64,000 bases of DNA, from positions 2,108,001 through 2,172,000 of the forward strand of contig NZ_CP067041.1 of the NCBI RefSeq assembly GCF_016599855.1, read 5' to 3'. How positions within the stretch are numbered: position 1 is the first letter of the stretch; every line of letters begins with the position of its first letter. Shown here piece after piece: positions 18,391-60,211 of this stretch. The notes below the pieces were generated by a model that made no database searches, was not told the DNA's origin, and was given only the letters and a program-made list of their open reading frames with translations. This stretch comes from Bradyrhizobium diazoefficiens. Lineage in GTDB: Bacteria; Pseudomonadota; Alphaproteobacteria; Rhizobiales; Xanthobacteraceae. The position numbers were made by a program, and so were the translations under genes.

Positions 18391-18470
18391 CGTCATTGCG
18401 AGCGCAGCGAAGCAATCCAGAGTCTTTCCGCGGTGACAGTCTGGATTGCTTCGCTACGCTCGCAATGACG
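18391..18470. repeat. Intergenic inverted-repeat element, family B (CGTCATTGCGAGCGCAGCGAA)
   Basis: The left arm CGTCATTGCGAGCGCAGCGA, then AGCAATCCAG, is answered by CTGGATTGCTTCGCTACGCT then CGCAATGACG, with a CGGTGACA-containing loop. Near-identical copies lie at 27496-27575, 38730-38816 and 56362-56442. Confidence 0.9.
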
Positions 18471-27466: not shown

Positions 27467-27495
27467 TACTGGAGCGACGGCCGTGCCGAACACTC

Positions 27496-27575
27496 CGTCA
27501 TTGCGAGCGCAGCGAGGCAATCCAGAGTCTTACCGCGGCGGCAGACTGGGTTGCTTCGCTGCGCTCGCAATGACG
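27496..27575. repeat. Intergenic inverted-repeat element, family B
   Basis: Copy of the element at 18391-18470, with ends CGTCATTGCGAGCGCAGCGA and GCTGCGCTCGCAATGACG and inner AGGCAATCCAG / CTGGGTTGCTT. It lies upstream of the HxlR gene in a 358-base gap shared with the next element. Confidence 0.9.
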
Positions 27576-27607
27576 AAGGCTGGAGCAGCCGGCGTTGCTC
27601 TATCACC

Positions 27608-38729: not shown

Positions 38730-38816
38730 CGTCATTGCGAGGAGCCCTTGCGACGAAGCAATCCAGACTGTCTCCGCGGAGAGAATCTGGATTGCTTCGC
38801 TGCGCTCGCAATGACG
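38730..38816. repeat. Intergenic inverted-repeat element, family B
   Basis: Copy of the family B element: CGTCATTGCGAGGAGCCCTT at the left, AAGCAATCCAG / CTGGATTGCTTCGCTGCGCT inside, and CGCAATGACG at the right. Confidence 0.88.
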
Positions 38817-38819
38817 AGC

Positions 38820-48065: not shown

Positions 48066-48119
48066 CGCGGCTGGCTGGGTTGGACACTCATCACCGAATC
48101 GGTCCGCGCGGCCTGACCT

Positions 48120-50807
48120 TTAGCTGCCTGTCTGCGGAGCCGCAGGCGGTGTCACTTGCCGCCGGAACAGGATGCGCTGGTAGAGCCAACCGATCGCAAC
48201 CAGCACGATGCCAAGGCACATGAACGACAGCGCGCGGTAGACGCCTGTGAGCGTCGACATGTCGATCGCGAAAGCCTTCAAAATCGTCAGCGCGATGACG
48301 GCGGCAGACGCCAGCCGCGCCCGCTCGGAATTGACTGTTATGCCGATGCCGAGGAGCACGACGCCGAAGGCGAGCCAACCGATCGAATAGCTGTATTGCT
48401 CGGCGCCCGTGGTCTCGCCGCTGGTGAGGAACGGGCCGTGATAGAAGCGGCGGGTCTCCATCGTGAGGTAAGTCAGCGCAAACACCAGAGCCGCGCCCGC
48501 GATCGTGTTCGCATAGGCCTTGCCGCGCTCGCCGACCACCGCATAGGCGAGGAGCAGCATCAGCACCGCCGGCAGCGCGTAGCCGAGCAGCAGCAGGTTG
48601 AACACGACGTCACCGACATCGATGTGCCAGAGCAGCGGGTTTTCCAGGAATAAGAGGCCGAACAGGCTGATGAAGCCCGCGATTGCCGTGAGCACGATCG
48701 CGCCGACATTGTGCACGATGCTCCGGCTGCGCAGCCGCAACCGCTCGAGGCCGGTCGCCATGGCCAGCGCCACGCAGACCTGCAAGCCGGCTTCCAGCAG
48801 TGACGGCGCGGCGATCATGTCGCCGCCGGTCGCGAGATGGCGGATCTCCATGAAGGCAAGCAGCGCAGTGAACAGGATCGCAGCCCCCTCCACCATGCGC
48901 AGCGGCGCGTCGTCGCCACGGCGGCGCAGGAAGATGCTCGCCGCCCAGAATGAGGCTGCCGGCAGGCCATAGCCCCACAGCAGCCAGTTCAGAATCGGCG
49001 TGGTGCCGACGGCGTCGCCGACGATGCGCGGATCATAGCCGACGCGCGCAGTGACGATGGCGGCGAAGATCGCAGCGAGCCAGCGCAGGAATGGGATCGG
49101 CCGCTGCATCGCAATCCAGGCGGTGCCGAGCGACATCAGCGCCAGCGCAATGGTGAGCCAACCCTTCTCCAGTGCGAAGGTGAGCGCCAGCGCCAGTGCG
49201 CCGAGCGTACCGGTCGCGAACAGTGCGGTCGAGATTGCAAGGCCCGGCCGCGCCTCGCGGCGAGCCAGTGTTTCCGTCGCAGCGCCAAAGGCGGCGGCGA
49301 GCAGCACCGCGAGGATCGCGAATGGGATCGAGCGGTCGAGATGGGCAATGCGGGCGTAGAGCGCGACCAGGAGCGCGAGCGGCGTCGCAACGCCCGCCGC
49401 CGACCACACCACGGCAATGATCGCCGAATTCGAGCGGCCCTGTGCGAAAAAGCCGGCGATGCCGAAGCCGGCGGCGAAGATCGCGGCCATCACCAGATGC
49501 AGCGTCACTGCATTGTCGGTTGCGACCGGCCCGACGCCGGGCATGGGTCCGCCCGGCAGCACCAGCATGTCGGGATTGGCGCGCACGGCCCATTCGGCGA
49601 ATACGATGAACACGGTTGCAGCGGCCGCGCCCAGCGCGCCGGTTGCCGCCGGGGCGCGCCAAGCGACCAACAACGTTGCCGCGATAAGCAGTGTGAAGGC
49701 GATCAGCGCCAGATCGGCATGCGCGCTCGACAGCACGATCAGCATCGCGCCGAACAGGTAAGCGCCGAGCGAGCTTGACGAGACCGGCTCGATCTCACCG
49801 TCTTCGATCGTCGGGCCGAACATGAAGCCGCAGACGACGAGCAGCGCTGCGAGCACGAAGCCGGCGATGACATGAAAAGCGTGCGGCGCGACCTGCAGCT
49901 CGCCGGTATCGAGTCCCAGAAAGGTCCACAGCACGGCGAAGGTGATCGTCGTTACCGCCAGCCAGCGCCACAACCGGATGCGGGCGAGGCCAAAGCTCGC
50001 GGCGGTGACGATGGCGAGATAGACGTAGAGCGCCCAATAATCCGGCTTGCCACTGGAGACGAGCACCGGGGTCGCGAACGCGCCGACCACGCCGAGGCCC
50101 GCCAGCGCCGGCCCGTGCAGCAACGCCGCCGCGAGCGTGCCCATCGCGACGAGGCCGAGCAGCACGAAGGCCGTGGCAGGCACCAGGAATCCATAGAGCG
50201 CATAGGCCGCATACACGGTTGCAAACGCGACTGCCGTGCCGGCCGCGGTGAGGATGGCGGGGATGTTGGCGATCGGCAGCGCCTGGACCGCCAAGATACT
50301 CTCCCTGCGCCGCGTCCATTCGCCGGCGCCCAGCAGCGCCAGCGCGAACAGGCCGCCAAGGAACACGCGCACGCCAGGGCCGACGAGGCCGGCCTCGATC
50401 GAATAGCGCACCATGAAGAAGCCGCCGAGCGCGAGCGCAAGGCCACCGATCCATACCACCCAGCGCGTGCCGAGTCGCTCTTCGAAACCAGGCGCAGGCA
50501 GCGGAGGCGGCGCATCGGCTGAGGGGCTCGCTTCGAGCGGGGGCGGCGAAACGTCTTCGGTGACGAGCGGAGGCGCTGCGGCCTCAGCCTCAGGCGCAAG
50601 CGGCGGGGGCTCTGCTGCGGGCGTGCTCGCTTGCTCCGACACAGGCATCAGCGGCGGTGGCTGGACCTGTCGCTGCACCTGCAGCGCGGCCTCCAGCGAA
50701 CTGAGCCGCCGGCGCAGCTCGGTCGCCTGGTTCGACGCCTTCAGCGCGATCAGGAACGCAGCGATCGCAAACATCACTGCAAAGACGTCGAACGGGGCGT
50801 CGAACAT
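48120..50807 (-). CDS. DUF2339 polytopic membrane protein
   Basis: This 895-residue inner-membrane protein starts with one anchor helix (FAVMFAIAAFLIALKA), a short coiled coil (ELRRRLSSLEAALQVQRQ), a Pro/Ala-rich linker (~45-105), and then about 25 hydrophobic segments beginning at LGTRWVVWIGGLALALGGFFMVRYSIEAGLVGPGVRV (split). That entry sequence is the hallmark of DUF2339 proteins, a bacterial family of very large membrane proteins of unknown function. The ATG at 50807 with AGGAG upstream is chosen over a start 45 codons earlier that overlaps nadQ. It lies 46 bases downstream of nadQ on the same strand. Confidence 0.88.
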   Translation of the reverse strand: MFDAPFDVFAVMFAIAAFLIALKASNQATELRRRLSSLEAALQVQRQVQPPPLMPVSEQASTPAAEPPPLAPEAEAAAPPLVTEDVSPPPLEASPSADAPPPLPAPGFEERLGTRWVVWIGGLALALGGFFMVRYSIEAGLVGPGVRVFLGGLFALALLGAGEWTRRRESILAVQALPIANIPAILTAAGTAVAFATVYAAYALYGFLVPATAFVLLGLVAMGTLAAALLHGPALAGLGVVGAFATPVLVSSGKPDYWALYVYLAIVTAASFGLARIRLWRWLAVTTITFAVLWTFLGLDTGELQVAPHAFHVIAGFVLAALLVVCGFMFGPTIEDGEIEPVSSSSLGAYLFGAMLIVLSSAHADLALIAFTLLIAATLLVAWRAPAATGALGAAAATVFIVFAEWAVRANPDMLVLPGGPMPGVGPVATDNAVTLHLVMAAIFAAGFGIAGFFAQGRSNSAIIAVVWSAAGVATPLALLVALYARIAHLDRSIPFAILAVLLAAAFGAATETLARREARPGLAISTALFATGTLGALALALTFALEKGWLTIALALMSLGTAWIAMQRPIPFLRWLAAIFAAIVTARVGYDPRIVGDAVGTTPILNWLLWGYGLPAASFWAASIFLRRRGDDAPLRMVEGAAILFTALLAFMEIRHLATGGDMIAAPSLLEAGLQVCVALAMATGLERLRLRSRSIVHNVGAIVLTAIAGFISLFGLLFLENPLLWHIDVGDVVFNLLLLGYALPAVLMLLLAYAVVGERGKAYANTIAGAALVFALTYLTMETRRFYHGPFLTSGETTGAEQYSYSIGWLAFGVVLLGIGITVNSERARLASAAVIALTILKAFAIDMSTLTGVYRALSFMCLGIVLVAIGWLYQRILFRRQVTPPAAPQTGS

Positions 50808-50853
50808 GGGGTCTCCTGGCAATCGGCGGGCAGGGGCCGACCGTAATCTTGGT

Positions 50854-51816
50854 CTAACGCCGGGAGCGTACGCGCAAGCCGGGCGCGGGCCGCTCCTGGA
50901 GCACGTCGCGCCGGAAGCGGTAGAGCGCCGCCGGCCGTCCACCCGTCTGTGTCGACATCACGCCGGTCGGTTCGACCAGCGCCTCGGTTTCGACCAGACG
51001 GCGAAAATTCTGCTTGTGGAGGTGACGGCCGGAGATGGCCTCGACTGTGTATTGCAATTCCGTAAGTGTGAACTCGGCGGGCAAAAGTTCAAACACGACA
51101 GGGCGATACTTCAGCTTTGCGCGCAGCCGGGCGATGGCTGTCGCAAGAATCCGACGGTGATCGAAACGCATCGATGTCCCGAGCGCGGGCAGCGTCTTGC
51201 GCGCAAGGGCTGCGGGCCGGCCGTCGCGCCGCGCCTCCTCGACGAGGCCGGCTTCGTACAGCAGCTCGTAGCGGTCGAGCACGCGCTCCTCGTCCCAGGA
51301 AGCGCCCTCAAGGCCGAAATAGAACCGCACGCGGTCCCTGCGCGGCAATGCGCGTGTGGTTTCCGGCGTCTCCTCCTCGGCCCATTTGGTCAGCGCCGGG
51401 ATGATGTCGCGGGCGATGATCGCGGGCGGCGCCTCGCGCCAGTCTTCCCAGGGGAAGAAGCGATACCAGGGCTCGAAGCTCGCCGTCGTTGCAGCGCCCT
51501 CGGCGGCGCGCGTCAGCGCAAGATAGCCGATCGACACCATATGCGCGCCGGTGTCGCCGGCTTCCGCATGACGGCCGCGATCGCCAAAAGTGTAGAGTTG
51601 CTCGACATAGCCGAGCCGCAATCCCGCTTGCTGTTCGACCCAGGCGCGCAGGCCGATCTCGAAGGTGCGATGGCTCGGCGCATCGAACGGGCCGAACGGC
51701 AGCCCGGCGAGGCCGTCGCTGCCGCGTGCGGTCAGCACCAATGGCTCATGATCCTCGATCGCGACGATCGCGGCAGTCAGGCCGATCTCGATCGGCGTCA
51801 GCTGCTTGTCGCTCAT
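50854..51816 (-). CDS. nadQ: NAD biosynthesis repressor NadQ (Nudix-like plus winged helix)
   Basis: This 320-residue protein has an N-terminal Nudix-like domain (~1-150; IGLTAAIVAIEDHEPLVLTAR, LPFGPFDAP, then LRAWVEQQAGLRLGYVEQLYTFGDRGR split) lacking the catalytic Nudix box residues, and a C-terminal winged helix (~230-310; FTLTELQYTVEAISGRHLHKQNFRRLVE, split). That architecture is the COG4111/NadQ family, which represses nadABC in Rhizobiales according to comparative genomics. The nadABC operon lies 6.5 kb away in the window with two candidate operators. The Nudix-like part probably senses an NAD metabolite. It is not adjacent to its target. Confidence 0.82.
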   Translation of the reverse strand: MSDKQLTPIEIGLTAAIVAIEDHEPLVLTARGSDGLAGLPFGPFDAPSHRTFEIGLRAWVEQQAGLRLGYVEQLYTFGDRGRHAEAGDTGAHMVSIGYLALTRAAEGAATTASFEPWYRFFPWEDWREAPPAIIARDIIPALTKWAEEETPETTRALPRRDRVRFYFGLEGASWDEERVLDRYELLYEAGLVEEARRDGRPAALARKTLPALGTSMRFDHRRILATAIARLRAKLKYRPVVFELLPAEFTLTELQYTVEAISGRHLHKQNFRRLVETEALVEPTGVMSTQTGGRPAALYRFRRDVLQERPAPGLRVRSRR

Positions 51817-51889
51817 GCGATTGAGGGCGCCGGTGTTGGCAGAAAGACTTGCCGGTTGATGGAGGTCACCTGGCCACGGGCTCGCTGTA

Positions 51890-52012
51890 ACCTCTCCCGC
51901 TTGCGGGAGAGGTCGGCGTGTAACGCCGGGTGAGGGCTTTCTCCTCTAGGGGATTGTCCCGTTGCGGAGACACCCTCTCCCCATCCCTCTCCCGCAAGCG
52001 GGAGAGGGGGCG
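51890..52012. repeat. Intergenic inverted-repeat element, family D
   Basis: Two hairpins, CCTCTCCCGCTTGCGGGAGAGG at the left and CCCTCTCCCGCAAGCGGGAGAGGG at the right, flank a GGTGAGGGCTTTCTCCTC middle. It lies between nadQ and the phosphatase gene. Confidence 0.88.
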
Positions 52013-52045
52013 CAGTCCCGTCCCGGCTGCTATTCGACTCCCGCC

Positions 52046-52552
52046 TCATTCGAGCTCGATCACGAAGGGGCGGCCTTCGACCAGCATCTCGCCCGGGCCC
52101 ATCTCGTCGAGAGCGTGCAGCATGCGGCCATTGCGCCCCAGCGCACGGTCGGCAAGGCTGACGATGCGCCGGTTCGGCGAGGCGATCGGGGACGCCGCGC
52201 GGATTTTCTTCGCGATCTCGACCTCGTCGCGCTGTGGATTGAGCGCGCAGACCGCAGCGAACGCGCTCGCCGTGGAGCGGCTGATACCGGCATAGCAATG
52301 CACCACCAGCGGCGCGCCCCGGTCCCAGCTGCGCACGAAATTCAGCACCTGGTCGACATGCGCTTCCGACGGCGCGACGAAACCGTCCATCTCCTCGGTG
52401 ATGTCGTCCATCGACACCTTGAGATGATTGGCAGGGAGCACCGACACCGGCCGAGCTACCTGTTCGACATTGGCCATCACCGTCAGCACGTGGCTGGCGC
52501 CGGTGCGGCGGACGGTTTCGGGAAGGGCGGCGAGGGAACAGACGTGGATCAT
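52046..52552 (-). CDS. Dual-specificity / tyrosine phosphatase-like protein
   Basis: This 168-residue protein has the Cys-based phosphatase signature HCYAGISRS (Cys86, Arg92) preceded by an acid candidate Asp50 in VSMDDITEE. It is compact like atypical dual-specificity phosphatases. It is cytoplasmic, probably dephosphorylating phosphotyrosine, phosphoserine/threonine or a small phosphate ester; the substrate is unknown. The second position of the P-loop holds GIS rather than the usual G-x-G, a moderate departure. It lies between two repeat elements and seems to be transcribed alone. Confidence 0.85.
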   Translation of the reverse strand: MIHVCSLAALPETVRRTGASHVLTVMANVEQVARPVSVLPANHLKVSMDDITEEMDGFVAPSEAHVDQVLNFVRSWDRGAPLVVHCYAGISRSTASAFAAVCALNPQRDEVEIAKKIRAASPIASPNRRIVSLADRALGRNGRMLHALDEMGPGEMLVEGRPFVIELE

Positions 52553-52613
52553 GGCGGACCTTTTTGTCGCTCATTATAGCGGGCGTCTGTAGTGTGGGCA
52601 AAGCATCCACATT

Positions 52614-52733
52614 GTCGTCCCGGCGAAGGCCGAGACCCATAACCACAGGGCCTCGTGATTGAGACGGTGGTAACTCCGAGTCTTCGCAAAACACTCTTTC
52701 GGGGTTATGGGTCCCGGCCTTCGCCGGGACGAC
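52614..52733. repeat. Intergenic inverted-repeat element, family G
   Basis: Copy of the element at 43086-43210: GTCGTCCCGGCGAAGGCC at the left and GGCCTTCGCCGGGACGAC at the right, with ACCCATAACC / GGTTATGGGT inside. Confidence 0.92.
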
Positions 52734-52769
52734 GGCGGAGCGTGAGGCGCCATCGACCCAGAACGGTGC

Positions 52770-53387
52770 CTACGCAAACACCGCGCCGAACCGCTCCAGA
52801 AACTGCTTCTCGGCCCGCGCCGCGGTCCAGGGCGTCAGATAGTCGTGCCGGACGCTGTCGGAGAGGCACGGATCCTTGCCGAACAGGCGCCTGGCCTCAG
52901 CATCGCTGAACCCGGCGAGCTCGGTCGCCTCCAGGTAGGCCGCGCCGCGATCGGCGGCCTTGATGGCCTGCGTTATCTCCTCGGGCAACACCGGCGGCAG
53001 CCCGAAACGGATATGGATGGCGCCGAGCAGGCGCTTCTCCACCGCCTTGTAATGGCCGTCGAGCACCGCCTTGAACGGCGAAATCATGTCGCCGATCACA
53101 TATTCGGGCGCATCGTGCAGCAGCGCTGCGAGCCGCATGCGCTGGTCGACGCGCGGCATCTCGTGACGCAGCACGGTCTCCACCAGCAGCGTGTGCTGCG
53201 CGACTGAGAAGATATGTGCGCCGGTGGTCTGTCCGTTCCAGCGTGCCACGCGCGCCAGCCCATGCGCGATGTCGGCGATCTCGATATCGAGCGGGGAGGG
53301 ATCGAGCAGATCGAGCCGCCGGCCCGACAGCATGCGCTGCCAGGCGCGCATCTGCACGCTGCGCGACGTCGTCTTCTTCGCCGTCAT
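52770..53387 (-). CDS. HD-domain hydrolase (YfbR-like)
   Basis: The 205-residue protein is an HD-superfamily metal phosphohydrolase: conserved His65 in VAQHTLLVETVL, His91-Asp92 in ALLHDAPEYVIGDMISPFK, and Asp near residue 145 in AIKAADRGAAYLEATEL. The HDxxEyvxGDMxxPfK spacing matches YfbR-type 5'-deoxynucleotidases and related HD proteins, which remove phosphates from deoxynucleoside monophosphates; the exact substrate is inferred. Its ATG overlaps the stop of tag by 4 bases (ATGA), so it is the last gene of a ygfZ-tag-HD operon. Confidence 0.88.
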   Translation of the reverse strand: MTAKKTTSRSVQMRAWQRMLSGRRLDLLDPSPLDIEIADIAHGLARVARWNGQTTGAHIFSVAQHTLLVETVLRHEMPRVDQRMRLAALLHDAPEYVIGDMISPFKAVLDGHYKAVEKRLLGAIHIRFGLPPVLPEEITQAIKAADRGAAYLEATELAGFSDAEARRLFGKDPCLSDSVRHDYLTPWTAARAEKQFLERFGAVFA

Positions 53388-54010
53388 TTGGCCTTAAGGC
53401 GCGGCTTGCGCTGCATCTTGCTGCAACTCGCGTGGCAGTGGCAGTCGACGAGATGGTCGTTGACCATGCCGGTCGCCTGCATGAAGGCATAGACGATGGT
53501 GGGGCCGACGAATTTGAAGCCGCGCGAGGACAGCTCTTTGGAGATTTGCACCGACAGCGGCGTGGAAGCGGGCACGCTCGCCGTGGTCTTGAATGTGTTG
53601 ATTTTGGGCCGTCCGTCCATGAAGTCCCACAGCAGCTTCGAAAAGCCTGGCCCCTTCTCCATGATCTCCAGATAGGACTTCGCGCTCAGGATCGTGCCGT
53701 CGATCTTGGCGCGGTTGCGCACGATGCCGACATCGTTCATCAGCGCATGCACCTTTTTGTCGTTGTAGCGCGCGATCTTCTCCGGTTGGAAATCGTCGAA
53801 CGCTTTGCGGAAATTGTCGCGCTTGCGCAGGATCGTGATCCAGGACAACCCGGCCTGAAAACCATCGAGGATCAGCTTTTCGTATAGCGCGCGGTCGTCA
53901 TACTCCGGTACGCCCCATTCAGTGTCGTGATAGGCGACATAGAGCGGATCTTCGCCCGGCCAAGGGCAGCGGGTCTTTCCGTCAGGATGCAGGTGGGGAG
54001 CACGGCTCAT
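53384..54010 (-). CDS. tag: DNA-3-methyladenine glycosylase I
   Basis: This 208-residue repair enzyme removes 3-methyladenine from DNA. The signature RCPWPGEDPLYVAYHDTEWGVPEYDD (split at ~14-39) and the catalytic region FQAGLSWITILRKRDNFRKAF are intact; zinc ligands come from the N-terminal Cys14 and a C-terminal His-Cys-His-x3-Cys (DCHCHASC). It overlaps ygfZ and the HD hydrolase by 4 bases each, so it is the middle gene of a coupled operon. No LexA box is seen upstream of the operon. Length is slightly above the E. coli enzyme because of a basic C-terminal tail. Confidence 0.95.
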   Translation of the reverse strand: MSRAPHLHPDGKTRCPWPGEDPLYVAYHDTEWGVPEYDDRALYEKLILDGFQAGLSWITILRKRDNFRKAFDDFQPEKIARYNDKKVHALMNDVGIVRNRAKIDGTILSAKSYLEIMEKGPGFSKLLWDFMDGRPKINTFKTTASVPASTPLSVQISKELSSRGFKFVGPTIVYAFMQATGMVNDHLVDCHCHASCSKMQRKPRLKAK

Positions 54011-54888
54011 GCGATGGGCTGTTTTGTCGGGATGCGGACGATTTCAGGTTCGGCGAGCCTCACAGCGAGGCCGCCGGCGGTGAGCGGCTGGCCGGCATCG
54101 AGCGCGTCGGCAACGCGGTCAATGCGCACCAGTGCGATGCCCTTGCCTTTCGCCGACGAGCCCATCGTGCCGACGGACTTGTCACCGGCCATAACGCTGA
54201 CACCGGCCTCCGGCGAGGGGCCGTCGAGCAGCACCTTGACGCTGCGGGTGCGCGCGGTGCCGCGATGCTGCATGCGCGAGACGACCTCCTGGCCGACATA
54301 GCAGCCCTTGTCGAAATCGACGCCGGCGAGGCGGTCCATGTTGGTCTCATGCGGAAACGCATCGCCGTACATGAAGTCGAGCCCACCGCGCGGCACGCCG
54401 AGCGCAATGCGATGGGCCTCGTATTCGCCGGCATCGACGAGGTCGGCGCCGATCAGGTCGGACAGTTTCTGCTTGAGATCTTCGGGGATCAGGATGCGAG
54501 TGCCGAGCTCACCATTGCGCGGATCGGCGAAGGCGAGGTCCGGCTGACCGCCGAGCTGGCCGTCCCAGGCCGCGAGCACGCCGAGATTGTCGGAGAGGTT
54601 GTCCACCGTCACCTTGGCGCGCAGCTTGTAGAATTTCAGCTTGGTGGCGAGGCCATCGGCCAGCGGTTTCGGGCAGTCGATCAGGAACCCGCCGCCATGG
54701 CCGGCAGGAGCTTCCGTGATTAGGAAATCCACGATGATCTTGCCCTGCGGTGTCAGCAACGCGCCGAATCGCCCCAGGCCCGGTTTCAGCCTGTCGAGAT
54801 CGGTCGTGATCAGGCCGTTGAGGAAGTTGCGTGCGTCATCGCCCGCGACCTTGACCACGCCCCGGTCGGGAAGAAACGCTGATTTCAT
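54007..54888 (-). CDS. ygfZ: YgfZ/GcvT-like folate-binding Fe-S protein
   Basis: This 293-residue protein is related to the glycine-cleavage T protein but has the YgfZ signature KGCYVGQEVVSRMQHRG near residue 205, including the conserved Cys. YgfZ-type proteins use tetrahydrofolate and help repair or mature certain [4Fe-4S] enzymes. The start LPDRGVVKVAGDDARNFLNGLITTDL (split) is typical. The ATG at 54888 is chosen over a longer start because homologues begin MKSAFLPDR. It is the first gene of the operon and is divergent from pyrC, leaving a ~100-base promoter region. Confidence 0.92.
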   Translation of the reverse strand: MKSAFLPDRGVVKVAGDDARNFLNGLITTDLDRLKPGLGRFGALLTPQGKIIVDFLITEAPAGHGGGFLIDCPKPLADGLATKLKFYKLRAKVTVDNLSDNLGVLAAWDGQLGGQPDLAFADPRNGELGTRILIPEDLKQKLSDLIGADLVDAGEYEAHRIALGVPRGGLDFMYGDAFPHETNMDRLAGVDFDKGCYVGQEVVSRMQHRGTARTRSVKVLLDGPSPEAGVSVMAGDKSVGTMGSSAKGKGIALVRIDRVADALDAGQPLTAGGLAVRLAEPEIVRIPTKQPIA

Positions 54889-54989
54889 GCGAAAATCTCT
54901 TGCGACATGTTGCTTCGGAACGTAAGCCCGCAAGGCATAAACGACAAGACCTCAAGCCCTGCGCTTGGGGATGACAGAGGTCTCCAGCC

Positions 54990-56324
54990 ATGACCCAGCG
55001 TTTCGATGTGATCCTCAGGGGTGGCACCGTCGTCAACCAGGACGGCGAGGGTGTTCGCGATATCGGCATCACCAATGGTCGCATCGCCGAGCTGGGTCCA
55101 CTGTCGCAGGATTCCGCCGCCGAGGTGATCGATTGCAAGGGCCTGCACATCCTGCCCGGCGTGATGGACACGCAGGTGCATTTCCGCGAGCCCGGGCTGG
55201 AGCAGAAGGAAGACCTCGAGACCGGTTCGCGCAGCGCCGTGATGGGCGGCGTGACTGCTGTGTTCGAGATGCCGAACACGTCGCCGCTCACCGTGACCGA
55301 GGCCACCTTCACCGACAAGGTGAAGCGCGCCCATCACCGCATGCATTGCGATTTCGCCTTCTTCATCGGCGGCACCCGCGAGAACGTGCAGGACCTGCCG
55401 GTGCTCGAACGTGCGCCCGGTTGCGCGGGTGTCAAGGTGTTCATCGGCTCATCGACCGGCGCACTGCTGGTCGAGGATGACGAAAGCCTGCGACGAATCT
55501 TCCAGGTGATCCGCCGCCGCGCGGCGTTCCACGCCGAGGACGAGTATCGCCTCAACGATCGCAAGTCGCTGCGCATCGAGGGCGATCCGCGCTCGCATCC
55601 GGTCTGGCGCGACGAGACCGCGGCGCTGATGGCGACGCAGCGTCTGGTTAAGCTCGCGCACGAGAGTGGCAAGCGCATCCACGTGCTGCACATCTCGACC
55701 AAGGAAGAGATTGAATATTTGCGCGACCACAAGGACGTCGCGTCCTGCGAGGCGACGCCGCATCACCTCACCCTGGTCGCGCCCGAATGCTACGAGCGGC
55801 TCGGCACGCTGGCGCAGATGAACCCGCCGGTGCGCGGGGCCGATCACCGCGCCGGTATCTGGCGCGGCATCGAGCAGGGCATCATCGACGTGCTCGGCTC
55901 CGACCATGCGCCGCATACGCTGGAAGAGAAGCAGAAGACCTATCCGGCCTCGCCCTCCGGCATGACCGGGGTGCAGACGCTGGTGCCGCTCATGCTCGAG
56001 CACGTCAATGCCGGCCGCTTGTCGCTGGCAAGGTTCGTCGATCTCACGAGCGCCGGTCCCGCCCGCCTCTACAACATAGCCCGCAAGGGCCGTATCGCGG
56101 CCGGCTACGACGCCGACTTCACGGTCGTCGATCTCAAACGCAGCGAAACCATCACCAACAAATGGGTGGCGTCGAAAGCCGGTTGGACCCCCTATGACGG
56201 CGTCCGCGTTACGGGCTGGCCCGTCGGCACCTTCATCCGCGGCCGCCGCGTGATGTGGCAGGGCGAACTCGTGACGCCCTCGCAGGGCGAGCCGGTGCGG
56301 TTTCTGGAGACGCTGAAGCAGTAG
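54990..56324 (+). CDS. pyrC: Dihydroorotase-type amidohydrolase (class I)
   Basis: This 444-residue amidohydrolase matches dihydroorotases, which cyclise carbamoyl aspartate in pyrimidine synthesis. The metal-site region is LPGVMDTQVHFREPG: His64 is kept, but the first His of the usual HxH is Gln62. The bridging carboxy-lysine (Lys149, GVKVFIGSSTG), VLHISTKEEIEYL, TPHHLTL and the catalytic Asp in LGSDHAPHTLEEK remain. It is therefore probably active, but with a modified metal site. Hydantoinase/allantoinase-type activity is an alternative. It is monocistronic, ending at a family B repeat. Confidence 0.88.
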   Translation: MTQRFDVILRGGTVVNQDGEGVRDIGITNGRIAELGPLSQDSAAEVIDCKGLHILPGVMDTQVHFREPGLEQKEDLETGSRSAVMGGVTAVFEMPNTSPLTVTEATFTDKVKRAHHRMHCDFAFFIGGTRENVQDLPVLERAPGCAGVKVFIGSSTGALLVEDDESLRRIFQVIRRRAAFHAEDEYRLNDRKSLRIEGDPRSHPVWRDETAALMATQRLVKLAHESGKRIHVLHISTKEEIEYLRDHKDVASCEATPHHLTLVAPECYERLGTLAQMNPPVRGADHRAGIWRGIEQGIIDVLGSDHAPHTLEEKQKTYPASPSGMTGVQTLVPLMLEHVNAGRLSLARFVDLTSAGPARLYNIARKGRIAAGYDADFTVVDLKRSETITNKWVASKAGWTPYDGVRVTGWPVGTFIRGRRVMWQGELVTPSQGEPVRFLETLKQ

Positions 56325-56361
56325 AACGCTGTCCTGTAAGGATGCACAATGCGTCCCCGCC

Positions 56362-56442
56362 CGTCATTGCGAGCGCAGCGAAGCAATCCAGAATCTTTCC
56401 GTGGTGACAGTCTGGATTTGCTTCGCTGCGCTCGCAATGACG
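56362..56442. repeat. Intergenic inverted-repeat element, family B
   Basis: CCGTCATTGCGAGCGCAGCG with AAGCAATCCAG at the left, and CTGGATTTGCTTCGCTGCGC with TCGCAATGACG at the right. The right arm has an extra T (GGATTTGC) compared with other copies. It lies 43 bases upstream of the chimeric gene. Confidence 0.9.
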
Positions 56443-56484: not shown

Positions 56485-57477
56485 ATGTCCCATCCCGCCG
56501 CCCTCATCACCACCGAGCAACTCGCCAGCATCCTCGACGATCCCAACCTGCGCCTCTACGACTGCACGACCTACAACGAACCGGTGCCGCCGGGCAGTGA
56601 CGTGCCCTATCGCGCTGTCCCCGGCGACAAGACCTTCGCGGACGGCCACATTCCCGGCGCCGATTTCCTCGACCTGCAGGGCGAGTTCTCCGACACCTCG
56701 CTATTCCTGTCGCATGGCGGCGGCCCCTGGCCGTTCATGGAGGACAGGCGGGTGCAATATGCCAAGACCGCCGCGGAATTCGGCCGGCTGCCGCAGCTTC
56801 TGCCCGCGCGGCCGAAGGCGGTGCTCGTCATCACCGGCCATTGGGAGGCTGATGCGTTCACCGTCTCGACCTCGGCGCATCCGCCGATGGTGTACGACTA
56901 TTACGGCTTCCCCGAGCATACGTACCACATCAAATATCCGGCGCCGGGCCAGCCCGCGCTCGCAGCAGAAGTGAAAGCGCTGCTCGCGCGCGCCGGCTTC
57001 GATTGCCGGGAGGACGCCAATCAGGGATTTGATCACGGCACGTTCGTGCCGCTCGGCCTGATGTATCCGAACGCCGACATGCCGATCGTGCTGCTGTCGC
57101 TGAAGGCGACCTACGATGCAGCCGAGCACATTAGGGTCGGGCAGGCGATTACTTCGCTGCGCGACGAAGGCATTCTGATCGTCGGTAGCGGGCTCACCTA
57201 TCACAACATGCGCGGCTTCGGACGCGCGGAGTCCAAGCCCGTCTCGTATGATTTCGAGGCCTATCTGAACGAGGCGATCAGCAATCCGGATGCGGCGCGC
57301 CGCAATGCGATGCTGATCGATTGGGAGAATGCGCCGGGCGCGCGTCTCGCCCATCCGCGCGAGGACCATCTGCTGCCGCTGATGGTCGCAGCAGGTGCCG
57401 CCGGCAGCGACGTCGGCAAGCGCGTCTTCGTCGACGAGGTCGCAAGCGTCGCGATGGCATCGTATGTGTTTGGGTAA
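56485..57477 (+). CDS. Chimera: N-terminal rhodanese fragment fused to LigB-type dioxygenase
   Basis: The 330-residue product has two unlike parts. Residues 1-72 (ITTEQLASILDDPNLRLYDC... GHIPGADFLDLQGEFSDTS) are the first part of a rhodanese/thiosulfate sulfurtransferase domain, cut before any catalytic Cys loop. From residue 73 (LFLSHGGGPWPFMEDRR) to the end it reads as a nearly whole class III extradiol (LigB/DODA, YgiD-like) dioxygenase, with metal-ligand candidates in SHGGGP, GHWEADAF and FDHGTFVPL. Only the first few residues of the dioxygenase are missing. The join keeps the frame at nucleotide ~56700. Start ATG 56485 with GGGAG. The substrate is unknown. Confidence 0.8.
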   Translation: MSHPAALITTEQLASILDDPNLRLYDCTTYNEPVPPGSDVPYRAVPGDKTFADGHIPGADFLDLQGEFSDTSLFLSHGGGPWPFMEDRRVQYAKTAAEFGRLPQLLPARPKAVLVITGHWEADAFTVSTSAHPPMVYDYYGFPEHTYHIKYPAPGQPALAAEVKALLARAGFDCREDANQGFDHGTFVPLGLMYPNADMPIVLLSLKATYDAAEHIRVGQAITSLRDEGILIVGSGLTYHNMRGFGRAESKPVSYDFEAYLNEAISNPDAARRNAMLIDWENAPGARLAHPREDHLLPLMVAAGAAGSDVGKRVFVDEVASVAMASYVFG

Positions 57478-57500: not shown

Positions 57501-58952
57501 TCAGGCGCGACGGGACGCCGTCAGACCGCGATAGAGCGCGGCGTACTCGCCTGCGCGGTTGCGCCAGGACACATCGGTCGCAAGGCCGCTCAATTGCAGC
57601 CGCCGCCAGGTCGGCTTGTCGCCGAAGGCGGCGTTCGCCTTGCGCAAGCTGCCGGCGAGGGCATCTGCCGTCACCGGAGCGAATTTGAAGCCAGTGGCAT
57701 CACGTCCGGCCTCGCCGATATCGACGATGGTGTCCTCGAGGCCGCCGACGCGGGAGACGATGGGGACTGCGCCATAGCGCAGGGCGCAGAGCTGGGTCAG
57801 CCCGCACGGCTCGAACCGCGAGGGCACGAGGAGCGCGTCGGAGCCGGCCTGGATCAGATGGGCGAGAACCTCGTCGTAGCCGATCAAGACGCCGATCCGG
57901 CCGGGATTGGCGCGCGCGACCGCCTGATAGCGATCCTGGAGATCGCGATCGCCGCTGCCGAGCAGCGCAAGCTGCATGCCCTGGTCCAGGATCGTCGGGA
58001 TTGCCTCGAGCAGGAGGTCGAGCCCCTTCTGCCAGGACAGCCGGCTGATGACGCCGAGCAGCGGCGCCTCGTCGGAGGAATCGAGGCTGAATTGCTGCTG
58101 AAGCGCTGCCTTGTTCGCGGCCCGGAATGCGAGATCTTCCGCGCCGAAACGATAGGCGATGTGCGGGTCGGTTTGCGGATTCCACACTTCGATGTCGATG
58201 CCGTTGAGGATGCCGCTCAGCACGCTTGCGCGTTCGCGCAGCAAGCCGCCGAGCCCCATGCCGCCTTCGTCGCTCTGGATTTCACGCGCGTAGGTCGGCG
58301 ACACCGTGGTGATGCGATCGGCGAGTTGCAGCCCGGCTTTCAGGAAGCTGATGCCGCCGAAATATTCGAGGCCGTGAACGTCGAACGCCGCCGCCGCGGG
58401 CAGGCCGATCGCGCCGGCCAGCGCACGATCGAACTTGCCCTGATAGGCCATGTTGTGAATGGTCATCACCGTGCCGGGTCGAGGGCCGCCGTCGTAATGC
58501 AAATAGGCCGGCGCCAGTCCGGCCTGCCAGTCATGGGCGTGCACCACGTCGGGTACGAAGGCTGCGACGAGACCGTGGCCGATGTCGGCCGCCACGCGCG
58601 ACAGCGCCGCGAAGCGCACGCCGTTATCCGGCCAGTCGATGCCCTCGGCGCTGACGTAAGGGTTGCCCGGCCGTGCATAGAGATGCGGCACGTCGAGCAC
58701 GAACAGGTCGAGCCCGTCGCGGGAGCCGGCGAGCAGGCGGCCCGGCCCGCCGAAATAGTCCGGCCAGATGCGGATTTCATCCGCGCCCGCGAGCTGCCGC
58801 ATCACGTCCGGGTAGCCCGGCATCAGCGTGCGCATCTCGACGCCGTGCGCCTTCAGTGCGATCGGCAGCGCGCCGGCGACGTCCGCGAGGCCGCCGGTCT
58901 TGACGATGGGATAGACTTCAGAAGCGACCGCGAGGACGCGAACAGGCGTCAT
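57501..58952 (-). CDS. glgA: Glycogen synthase (ADP-glucose)
   Basis: This 483-residue GT5 enzyme adds glucose from ADP-glucose to glycogen. The ADP-glucose-binding [10 protein letters not shown] motif starts at Lys18, and [44 protein letters not shown] and the C-terminal [17 protein letters not shown] motif are all present. Length is normal. Its ATG overlaps the stop of glgC by 4 bases, so the two enzymes are translationally coupled, in a glgC-glgA operon. Branching and phosphorylase genes are not in the window. Confidence 0.96.
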
Positions 58953-60211
58953 GTATTGAGCCTGTCGATCATCGGCTGGGTGATGAGCGAGATACCCTGC
59001 TCGGTGGTGCGGAAGCGCTTGGCGTCGAACTCGGGATCCTCGCCGACCACGAGCCCCTCGGGAATCTCCACGCCGCGGTCGATCACGACGTTCTTCAGTC
59101 GCGCGCCGCGGCCGACATTGACGTAAGGCATGATCACGGCGTTCTCGACATTGGCAAAGGAGTTAATGCGCACGCCGGTGAACAGCAGCGAGCGGCGCAG
59201 CGCCGCACCGGAGATGATGCAGCCGCCCGACACCAGCGAGCTCACCGCTTGGCCGCGGCGGCTCTCCTCGTCATGGACGAACTTGGCGGGCGGCGTGATC
59301 TCCACATAGGACCAGATCGGCCAGGCGCGGTCGAACAGATCGAGCTCCGGTACCACGTCGGTGAGGTCGATATTGGCCGACCAATAAGCATCGACCGTGC
59401 CGGCGTCGCGCCAGTAGGCGCGCGGATCGCTGCCCGAGCGCACGCAGGAGGTCGAGAACTGATGCGCGATGGCGCGGCCGTTCTTGACGATATAGGGGAT
59501 GATGTCCTTGCCGAAATCGTGGTTGGAGTGCGGGTCTTCGGCGTCGCGCTTCAACTCCTCGAACAGGAATTTCGCGTCGAACACGTAGATGCCCATGCTG
59601 GCGAGCGAAACGTCCGGCTTGCCCGGCATCGGCGGCGGATCTTTCGGCTTCTCCAGGAACGACTTGATCCAGCCGTTCTCGTCAACATGCATGATGCCGA
59701 AGCCGGAAGACTCTTGGCGCGGCATTTCGAGGCATCCGACCGTGACGTCGGCGCCGCTGTCGACGTGCTGCCGCAGCATCACCTCGTAGTCCATTTTGTA
59801 GATGTGATCGCCGGCGAGCACGACGATGAAGCGGCAGGCGTGCGATTCGATGATATCGATGTTCTGGTAGATCGCATCTGCCGTGCCGACATACCACATG
59901 GACTCCGAGACGCGCTGGCTCGCCGGCAGGATGTCGAAGCTTTCGTTGCGCTCCGGGCGGAAGAAGTTCCAGCCCATCTGGAGATGCCGGATCAGGCTGT
60001 GCGCCTTGTACTGCGTGGCGACCGCGATACGGCGGATGCCGGAGTTCACCGCATTGGACAGCGCGAAATCGATGATGCGGGATTTGCCGCCGAAATAGAC
60101 CGCCGGCTTGGCGCGCCGATCGGTCAGCTCCAGCAGCCGGCTGCCGCGGCCACCGGCCAGGACAAACGCCAGTGCCTGGCGGGCAAGCGGCTCATTTCCG
60201 GCAGCACTCAT
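58949..60211 (-). CDS. glgC: Glucose-1-phosphate adenylyltransferase
   Basis: This 420-residue enzyme makes ADP-glucose from glucose 1-phosphate and ATP and controls glycogen synthesis. The N-terminal [32 protein letters not shown] (split) is the nucleotidyltransferase and allosteric region; [27 protein letters not shown] and [13 protein letters not shown] are catalytic motifs; the C-terminal left-handed beta helix ends with [26 protein letters not shown] (split). It precedes glgA with a 4-base overlap. The promoter must lie in 60212-60438, where I see no known site. Confidence 0.96.

Follow-up and report, generated by a model that had tools for sequence, protein, structure and literature searches.

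Two in-frame rhodanese-dioxygenase chimeras in Bradyrhizobium diazoefficiens, very probably the products of one large inversion

A rhodanese head joined to a dioxygenase

The window that we analysed, a stretch of 64,000 nucleotides, covers positions 2108001-2172000 of the B. diazoefficiens genome G000, which is assembled as a single contig of 7,100,878 bases (G000:C1). Positions 56485..57477 of its plus strand hold an open frame of 330 codons that joins the head of a rhodanese to a DODA/LigB-type dioxygenase; the peptide that spans the junction reads ...GEFSDTSLFLSHGGG.... Codons 1-72 (56485..56700, plus strand) are the beginning of a 289-aa two-domain rhodanese resembling mercaptopyruvate sulfurtransferase, together with the start region of that gene, as judged from a 72/72 identity to the intact rhodanese P0122 and from a left flank that is the one of the pyrC-rhodanese locus. 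Residues 73-330 represent a LigB protein of the DODA/YgiD type, running from codon 7 of the dioxygenase gene to its stop (56701..57477, plus strand; 258 residues) according to orthologues and PDB matches. The initial annotation had proposed an in-frame fusion of precisely these two parts, a dioxygenase that lacks its first few residues, and a head without a catalytic cysteine loop. All three proposals hold: the frame is open throughout, the missing residues number six (MTRFPT; MTR[FL]PT among the orthologues), and the cysteine loop is absent from the head.

When the entire 330-aa protein is searched, Pfam and NCBIfam name the dioxygenase part alone. PF02900 matches residues 106-315 (E 3.7e-32; 111.9 bits against a cut-off of 26.3), while PRK10628, an equivalog model for 4,5-DOPA extradiol dioxygenase with a curated cut-off, covers residues 72-325 with 155.1 bits, a score that was determined for the fusion only and lies under the cut-off of 233. 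The 72-residue head searched by itself reaches 17.6 bits with the Rhodanese profile (cut-off 22.2) and spans positions 1-36 of the 102 profile positions. No second match to the 330-aa protein was found in G000 at E<=0.001.

The genes on either side belong to different loci. To the left lies a gene for a dihydroorotase-like protein of 444 aa (54990..56324, plus strand), presumably pyrC, which marks the rhodanese locus and occurs in the same order in the loci L031, L033, L034, L039, L201, and L203. To the right, a glycogen-synthase-like gene (57501..58952, minus strand), which we take to be glgA, marks the dioxygenase locus (same order in L032, L035, L040, L200, and L202); it is accompanied by a glucose-1-phosphate-adenylyltransferase-like gene (58949..60211, minus strand), presumably glgC, that shares the synteny of the dioxygenase locus. 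The spacer between pyrC and the rhodanese head contains, at about 56361..56442, the palindromic "family B" repeat to which the initial annotation had already drawn attention; it is situated 42 bases 5' of the ATG and 258 bases 5' of the junction. Four copies of this repeat, one of them shorter, are present in the window (18391-18470, 27495-27576, 38754-38818, and 56361-56442).

The solved structures nearest in sequence to the dioxygenase part are those of the DODA enzymes 8in2, 29ky, and 9j2l and of the E. coli YgiD protein (2pw6), and residues 72-309 of the fusion align with both 8in2 and 2pw6. Six histidines common to these solved relatives (H77, H119, H184, H240, H290, and H295; alignment with 8in2) are retained, and we take them to be the metal or catalytic residues of the dioxygenase. 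Between the junction and H77 there is no in-frame ATG, GTG, or TTG, the first internal ATG being residue 85; hence, any dioxygenase that starts at one of these codons and carries H77 must include the tail. In an AlphaFold2 model the blocks of the dioxygenase core have pLDDT values of 60-98 and those of the tail 34-67 (best of five models, 79.0; the others, 68.9-73.3). The fold matches 8in2, 9j2l, and 2pw6 with TMt values of 0.80-0.85, the best DODA match being 8in2 (0.85). Since the tail leads into the beginning of the first strand (residues 72-76) and H77 follows just past the end of that strand, the modelled active site is expected to stay usable, a prediction that we regard as somewhat better supported than its opposite. 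With all six shared histidines kept, the dioxygenase is probably active despite its tail, as far as one can judge from its sequence.

The reciprocal reading frame and the two breakpoints

Searching G000 with the remainder of a relative's rhodanese uncovered the missing portion of the gene at 5633897-5634547 on the minus strand (88% identity; residues 2-218 of the query fragment), and a relative with 36% identity at 5845122-5845763 (minus strand). The former is part of an open frame of 223 codons (G000:C1:5633894-5634565, minus strand), which begins with the start codons of the dioxygenase and continues in frame with rhodanese residues 73-289; its product opens with MTRFST, followed directly by AQQLFMMPEV... 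and thus by 217 rhodanese residues. It possesses the CGGGIS loop and is devoid of rhodanese residues 1-72. An esterase-like gene (assigned by eye) lies upstream of this frame and precedes the dioxygenase in the relative G060. An 896-aa open frame is also found upstream of the G060 dioxygenase (L032:4172-6862, minus strand), which by eye combines a flavin monooxygenase with an alpha/beta hydrolase. The rhodaneses of seven relatives that we compared measure 288-289 aa; the one from G045 matches the 3-mercaptopyruvate sulfurtransferase model PRK11493 at 144.1 bits, under the cut-off of 250, and PDB entry 1urh. Neither piece in G000 combines both rhodanese domains and the cysteine loop in one chain.

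Base-level comparison with relatives places one breakpoint at 56700..56701 (G000:C1:2164700/2164701), between residues 72 and 73 of the fusion, and the other at G000:C1:5634549, 3.47 Mb away. Examples of the unbroken sequences of relatives are ...GACACCTCGGCGCAACAA for the rhodanese (G065) and ATGACGCGATTTCCGACCCTCTTCCTG for the dioxygenase. In G000 the junctions read ...GACACCTCG joined to CTATTCCTG and ATGACGCGATTTTCGAC joined to GGCGCAGCAG, a crosswise exchange with a slack of about one base. In such an exchange one in-frame junction entails that the other is in frame as well, and a single one arises by chance in about one case in three; that both junctions are in frame is therefore weak evidence.

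The flanks, which we compared over roughly 5-9 kb to the left and right of either break, are complementary at both breaks. Window positions 48096-56324 track the rhodanese locus of G060, and the sequence from 56701 onward tracks its dioxygenase locus; at the distant break, 5634549-5641413 follows the upstream flank of the dioxygenase and 5629334-5634547 follows the rhodanese with its downstream flank. Both loci are continuous in G060, G045, G125, G206, and G008, so that one inversion suffices to convert the local gene order of these relatives into that of G000. On the flanks read, two reciprocal junctions with inverted order are thus present; further rearrangements may have taken place later in the interior of the 3.47-Mb segment.

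Neither break is embedded in a repeat. Between the 6-kb regions around the two junctions in G000 there is no match better than E 0.11 (14 bp), and the longest among the matches listed measures 16 bp; the rhodanese locus of G045 and the dioxygenase locus of G060 share words of at most seven bases near the breakpoints, and these lie off the break itself. The palindromic repeat sits in the spacer rather than at the breakpoint, it also precedes the unbroken rhodanese gene of G065, and no copy was detected at E<=1e-3 in 58.8 kb around the other breakpoint (L043-L045). It is therefore unlikely to have made the junction, and recombination through it was dismissed, with a copy found at neither break.

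The inverted segment comprises 3,469,849 bases, and its centre (3,899,625) lies 49 kb from a candidate dif-like site, AATTCGCATAAGGTATATTATGGAATAC, at G000:C1:3850757-3850784. This candidate matches 15 of the 22 positions of an E. coli consensus, is tied with two other sites, and was picked post hoc at the position where KOPS orientation flips (3.848-3.867 Mb); a dif-like pattern allowing one mismatch gave no match. Three parS-like sites are located at G000:C1:199299-201299, about 200 kb from dnaA (0.4 kb), so that dnaA may not mark the origin. The opposite centre of the inversion falls at 0.349 Mb, compared with 0.199-0.201 Mb for the parS-like sites, and the arms from parS to the breakpoints measure 1.96 and 1.67 Mb. 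GC skew, as sampled, is noisy: it is negative from 3.793 Mb, ahead of the KOPS flip, negative over the first 19 kb, and slightly positive on the expected negative side in L173, L044, L176, L192, and L191. The KOPS counts contain single exceptions in L162, L164, L173, L174, L190, L193, and the window. Collectively, with a candidate terminus site near its centre, the inversion is roughly symmetric about the origin-terminus axis.

Occurrence among relatives, age, and constraint

The whole fusion (residues 1-330) is matched at E<=1e-140 by one of 265 genomes of the genus, namely G000 itself. Matches at this threshold occur in 127 genomes including G000; those in the other 126 begin at residue 54-73, and the remaining 138 genomes have none. 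In searches of 146 and of 265 genomes of the genus, the dioxygenase and the rhodanese head find separate places, in keeping with the initial annotation's statement that the partners are normally encoded separately, and the case that it had also considered, in which most relatives encode the same fused protein, is contradicted by this distribution. Named loci show the group to be that of Bradyrhizobium; in the best 80 of 325 the matches all begin at residue 51-73, and no fused protein is found among them; no match among the best 120 of 7,987 scored protein matches covers more than 78% of the fusion. One locus (L112) labelled Frankia sp. RB7 carries a Bradyrhizobium-like dioxygenase (92%) and is probably mislabelled or contaminated. 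A full-length rhodanese query matches 229 of the 265 genomes at E<=1e-60, and among the matches listed the incomplete ones are those of G000 (71-289), G144 (62-289), and G132 (1-230). The G132 match stops 19 bases from a contig end. G144, considered as a second truncated rhodanese, instead has an in-frame internal deletion with no rearrangement: its orthologue (L158:2906-3838) lacks, by eye, about 27 residues of the first domain, which is unrelated to the inversion.

In the 48 relatives with both matches on contig C1, some of them incomplete assemblies, the rhodanese and dioxygenase genes are at least 117 kb apart in 47. Forty of the 48 have them on opposite strands with 3.4-5.4 Mb in between; in the other eight the genes share a strand and are separated by 8 kb to 2.05 Mb.

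A protein search revealed an intact 289-aa rhodanese (P0122) that is identical to the head at 72 of 72 positions and to the reciprocal frame at 215 of 219; of the four differences, two concern the junction codons. It is present on two contigs, the longest of 3,275 bases, and shares with the head H3 and D53, residues that are otherwise private to G000 among 33 distinct heads. The existence of this nearly identical intact allele makes the inversion look recent; most simply, these sequences suggest that the rhodanese was split after the separation from the P0122 lineage. The closest intact dioxygenase among the best 120 of 7,987 protein matches is 93% identical.

We compared the median omega of G000 versus relatives with that among relatives (Nei-Gojobori; the comparison among relatives used pairs with dS over 0.15, up to the first 3,000). 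The values are 0.096 and 0.095 for the dioxygenase part (94 sequences), 0.153 and 0.134 for the rest of the rhodanese (36), and 0.131 and 0.086 for the head (33); the control genes gave 0.052 and 0.059 (pyrC), 0.133 and 0.139 (glgA), and 0.074 and 0.076 (glgC). When each part is compared with its ten nearest relatives, omega remains inside the range of the relatives for the dioxygenase (0.101) and for the rhodanese rest (0.169), and that of the head (0.176) exceeds their 95% bound of 0.163. Private residues number none in the dioxygenase, one in the rhodanese rest, and two in the head; the head has no private synonymous codon, and eight of 33 relatives have as many private residues. The raised value of the head may reflect relaxed constraint or small numbers. 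Decay of the pieces was considered and dismissed, there being no stop or frameshift and the omega values of the dioxygenase and the rhodanese rest staying inside the relatives' range; these comparisons give no clear sign of decay and hint at relaxed constraint in the head.

Origin of the chimeras and comparison with known systems

We consider it very probable that both chimeras, known from one assembly, arose together in one recent reciprocal inversion spanning 3.47 Mb. It would have severed codon 72 of the rhodanese gene from codon 73 and codon 6 of the dioxygenase gene from codon 7, followed by crosswise rejoining of the ends. The breaks may have been joined illegitimately, in an end-joining-like manner, perhaps at two stalled replication forks at mirror positions.

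The assembly itself could have created such a picture if the two loci had been crossed by the assembler while both genes are intact in the chromosome, as the initial annotation had allowed, and the intact, nearly identical rhodanese P0122 would fit this. Misassemblies normally sit in long repeats. Here, two reciprocal junctions at the same base, both in frame, lie in repeat-free coding DNA, and P0122 and the G000 pieces disagree at two residues outside the junction codons, so that P0122 probably stems from another strain; we thus hold an artefact in this one assembly to be quite improbable. Very little likelihood attaches, too, to the view that the fusion is an established two-part protein whose tail has a selected function. 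That the frame is kept and that head and body show neither stops nor clear decay would be compatible with it. Coverage of the fusion is partial throughout the best 120 of the 7,987 protein matches, however, none of the other genomes among the 265 of the genus matches the whole protein, the tail is predicted to be mostly disordered, and the intact allele in a nearly identical lineage makes the join recent.

A second rearrangement at the same two loci bears on the remaining alternatives. In G065 the rhodanese with about 1.8 kb of its downstream flank is joined to about 5.4 kb of the upstream flank of the dioxygenase (L033:12447-12485), with the complementary junction at about 2.50 Mb (L199:14459-14654). 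This is a separate reciprocal inversion of about 3.9 Mb that connects the same two loci; relative to G000, its breakpoints are displaced by about 2.4 kb at the rhodanese locus and 5.4 kb at the dioxygenase locus. In a tree built from two glycogen genes together with the dioxygenase (of 86 sequences, 74 had all three), G065 stands apart from G000, which belongs to a clade of four with a support of 0.92; the p-distance to G000 is 8.7% for its nearest relative and 12.0% for G065.

In G065 the two genes occur in the order that is needed, with 8 kb between them, and this arrangement could be taken to favour the initial annotation's idea that adjacent genes were fused by deletion of the intervening DNA. 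Several observations speak against it: the remainder of the rhodanese and the first codons of the dioxygenase are still present, linked together at a site 3.47 Mb distant, the genes are widely separated in 47 of the 48 relatives compared, the flanks of G000 run on past the points at which G065 is joined, the tree does not group the two genomes, and an excised circle would have had to be reinserted at the matching place. We therefore give a deletion next to no credence; the in-frame fusion and the new tail of the initial annotation stand, and its picture of neighbours joined by deletion does not. Alternatively, the DNA between the two genes could have been excised in a G065-like ancestor and then reinserted between matching flanks, which would account for the meeting of the same two loci in two species. 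This course is nevertheless exceedingly unlikely, given that it requires more events than one inversion, that five relatives read at both loci, including G206, are unrearranged, and that G065 and G000 fall apart in the tree. The opposite-strand arrangement of the genes, megabases apart, in most relatives, together with nearby breakpoints in two lineages, raises the idea that half-chromosome inversions in Bradyrhizobium preferentially involve this pair of loci; we find this doubtful, and the coincidence of breakpoints, noticed while inspecting these very loci, may be due to chance. If it were true, the pair would mark places where two forks or arms repeatedly meet and are joined without homology, with chimeric genes as a by-product.

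Under the single inversion, both chimeras would be incidental products, as opposed to a two-part enzyme favoured by selection. Expression of the dioxygenase would be driven by the start and promoter of the rhodanese gene; the dioxygenase would thus have acquired the new N-terminal tail and start region foreseen in the initial annotation and would still be made, with 72 mostly disordered residues ahead of its first strand. The 223-aa product retains the sulfurtransferase's catalytic half but is missing roughly half of the N-terminal domain; its sulfurtransferase activity is likely to be lost or strongly reduced, and the 36% identical relative perhaps covers for it. For annotation, this means that the open frame should not be taken to represent a natural family of rhodanese-dioxygenase proteins and that the sulfurtransferase at the distant site is a truncated one. 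The case displays, base by base and at an early stage, how a large repeat-free inversion can create two new reading frames, and the intact allele in a nearly identical lineage makes the tolerance, use, or decay of accidental chimeras directly testable.

Among known proteins, the fusion resembles the class III extradiol dioxygenases of the DODA/YgiD type (PF02900; 8in2, 9j2l, 2pw6) in sequence alignment and fold, and differs from them in that its first six residues are exchanged for 72 of another protein. Compared with 3-mercaptopyruvate sulfurtransferase and other two-domain rhodaneses (PF00581; 1urh), the head and the reciprocal frame correspond to residues 1-72 and 73-289 of one protein that in G000 is divided over two loci, with both domains whole in neither piece. 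The event is of a known kind; unusual are the two in-frame reciprocal chimeras and the clean outcome. A partial body of literature (including PMC9584773 and PMC12863080) yielded no report of this rhodanese-dioxygenase fusion, nor of a bacterial inversion that gave rise to paired in-frame chimeras. According to PMC9584773, symmetric inversions are the predominant structural variation in bacteria, B. diazoefficiens is named among the species that have them, and the large inversions examined carry the same repeat at both ends. Such repeats are usual without being required, and none was found here. Like the replication-associated symmetric inversions ("RASR") described there, the G000 rearrangement is one large inversion that is roughly symmetric about the replication axis; unlike them, its breaks are free of repeats and fall inside two coding sequences, with products that stay in frame.
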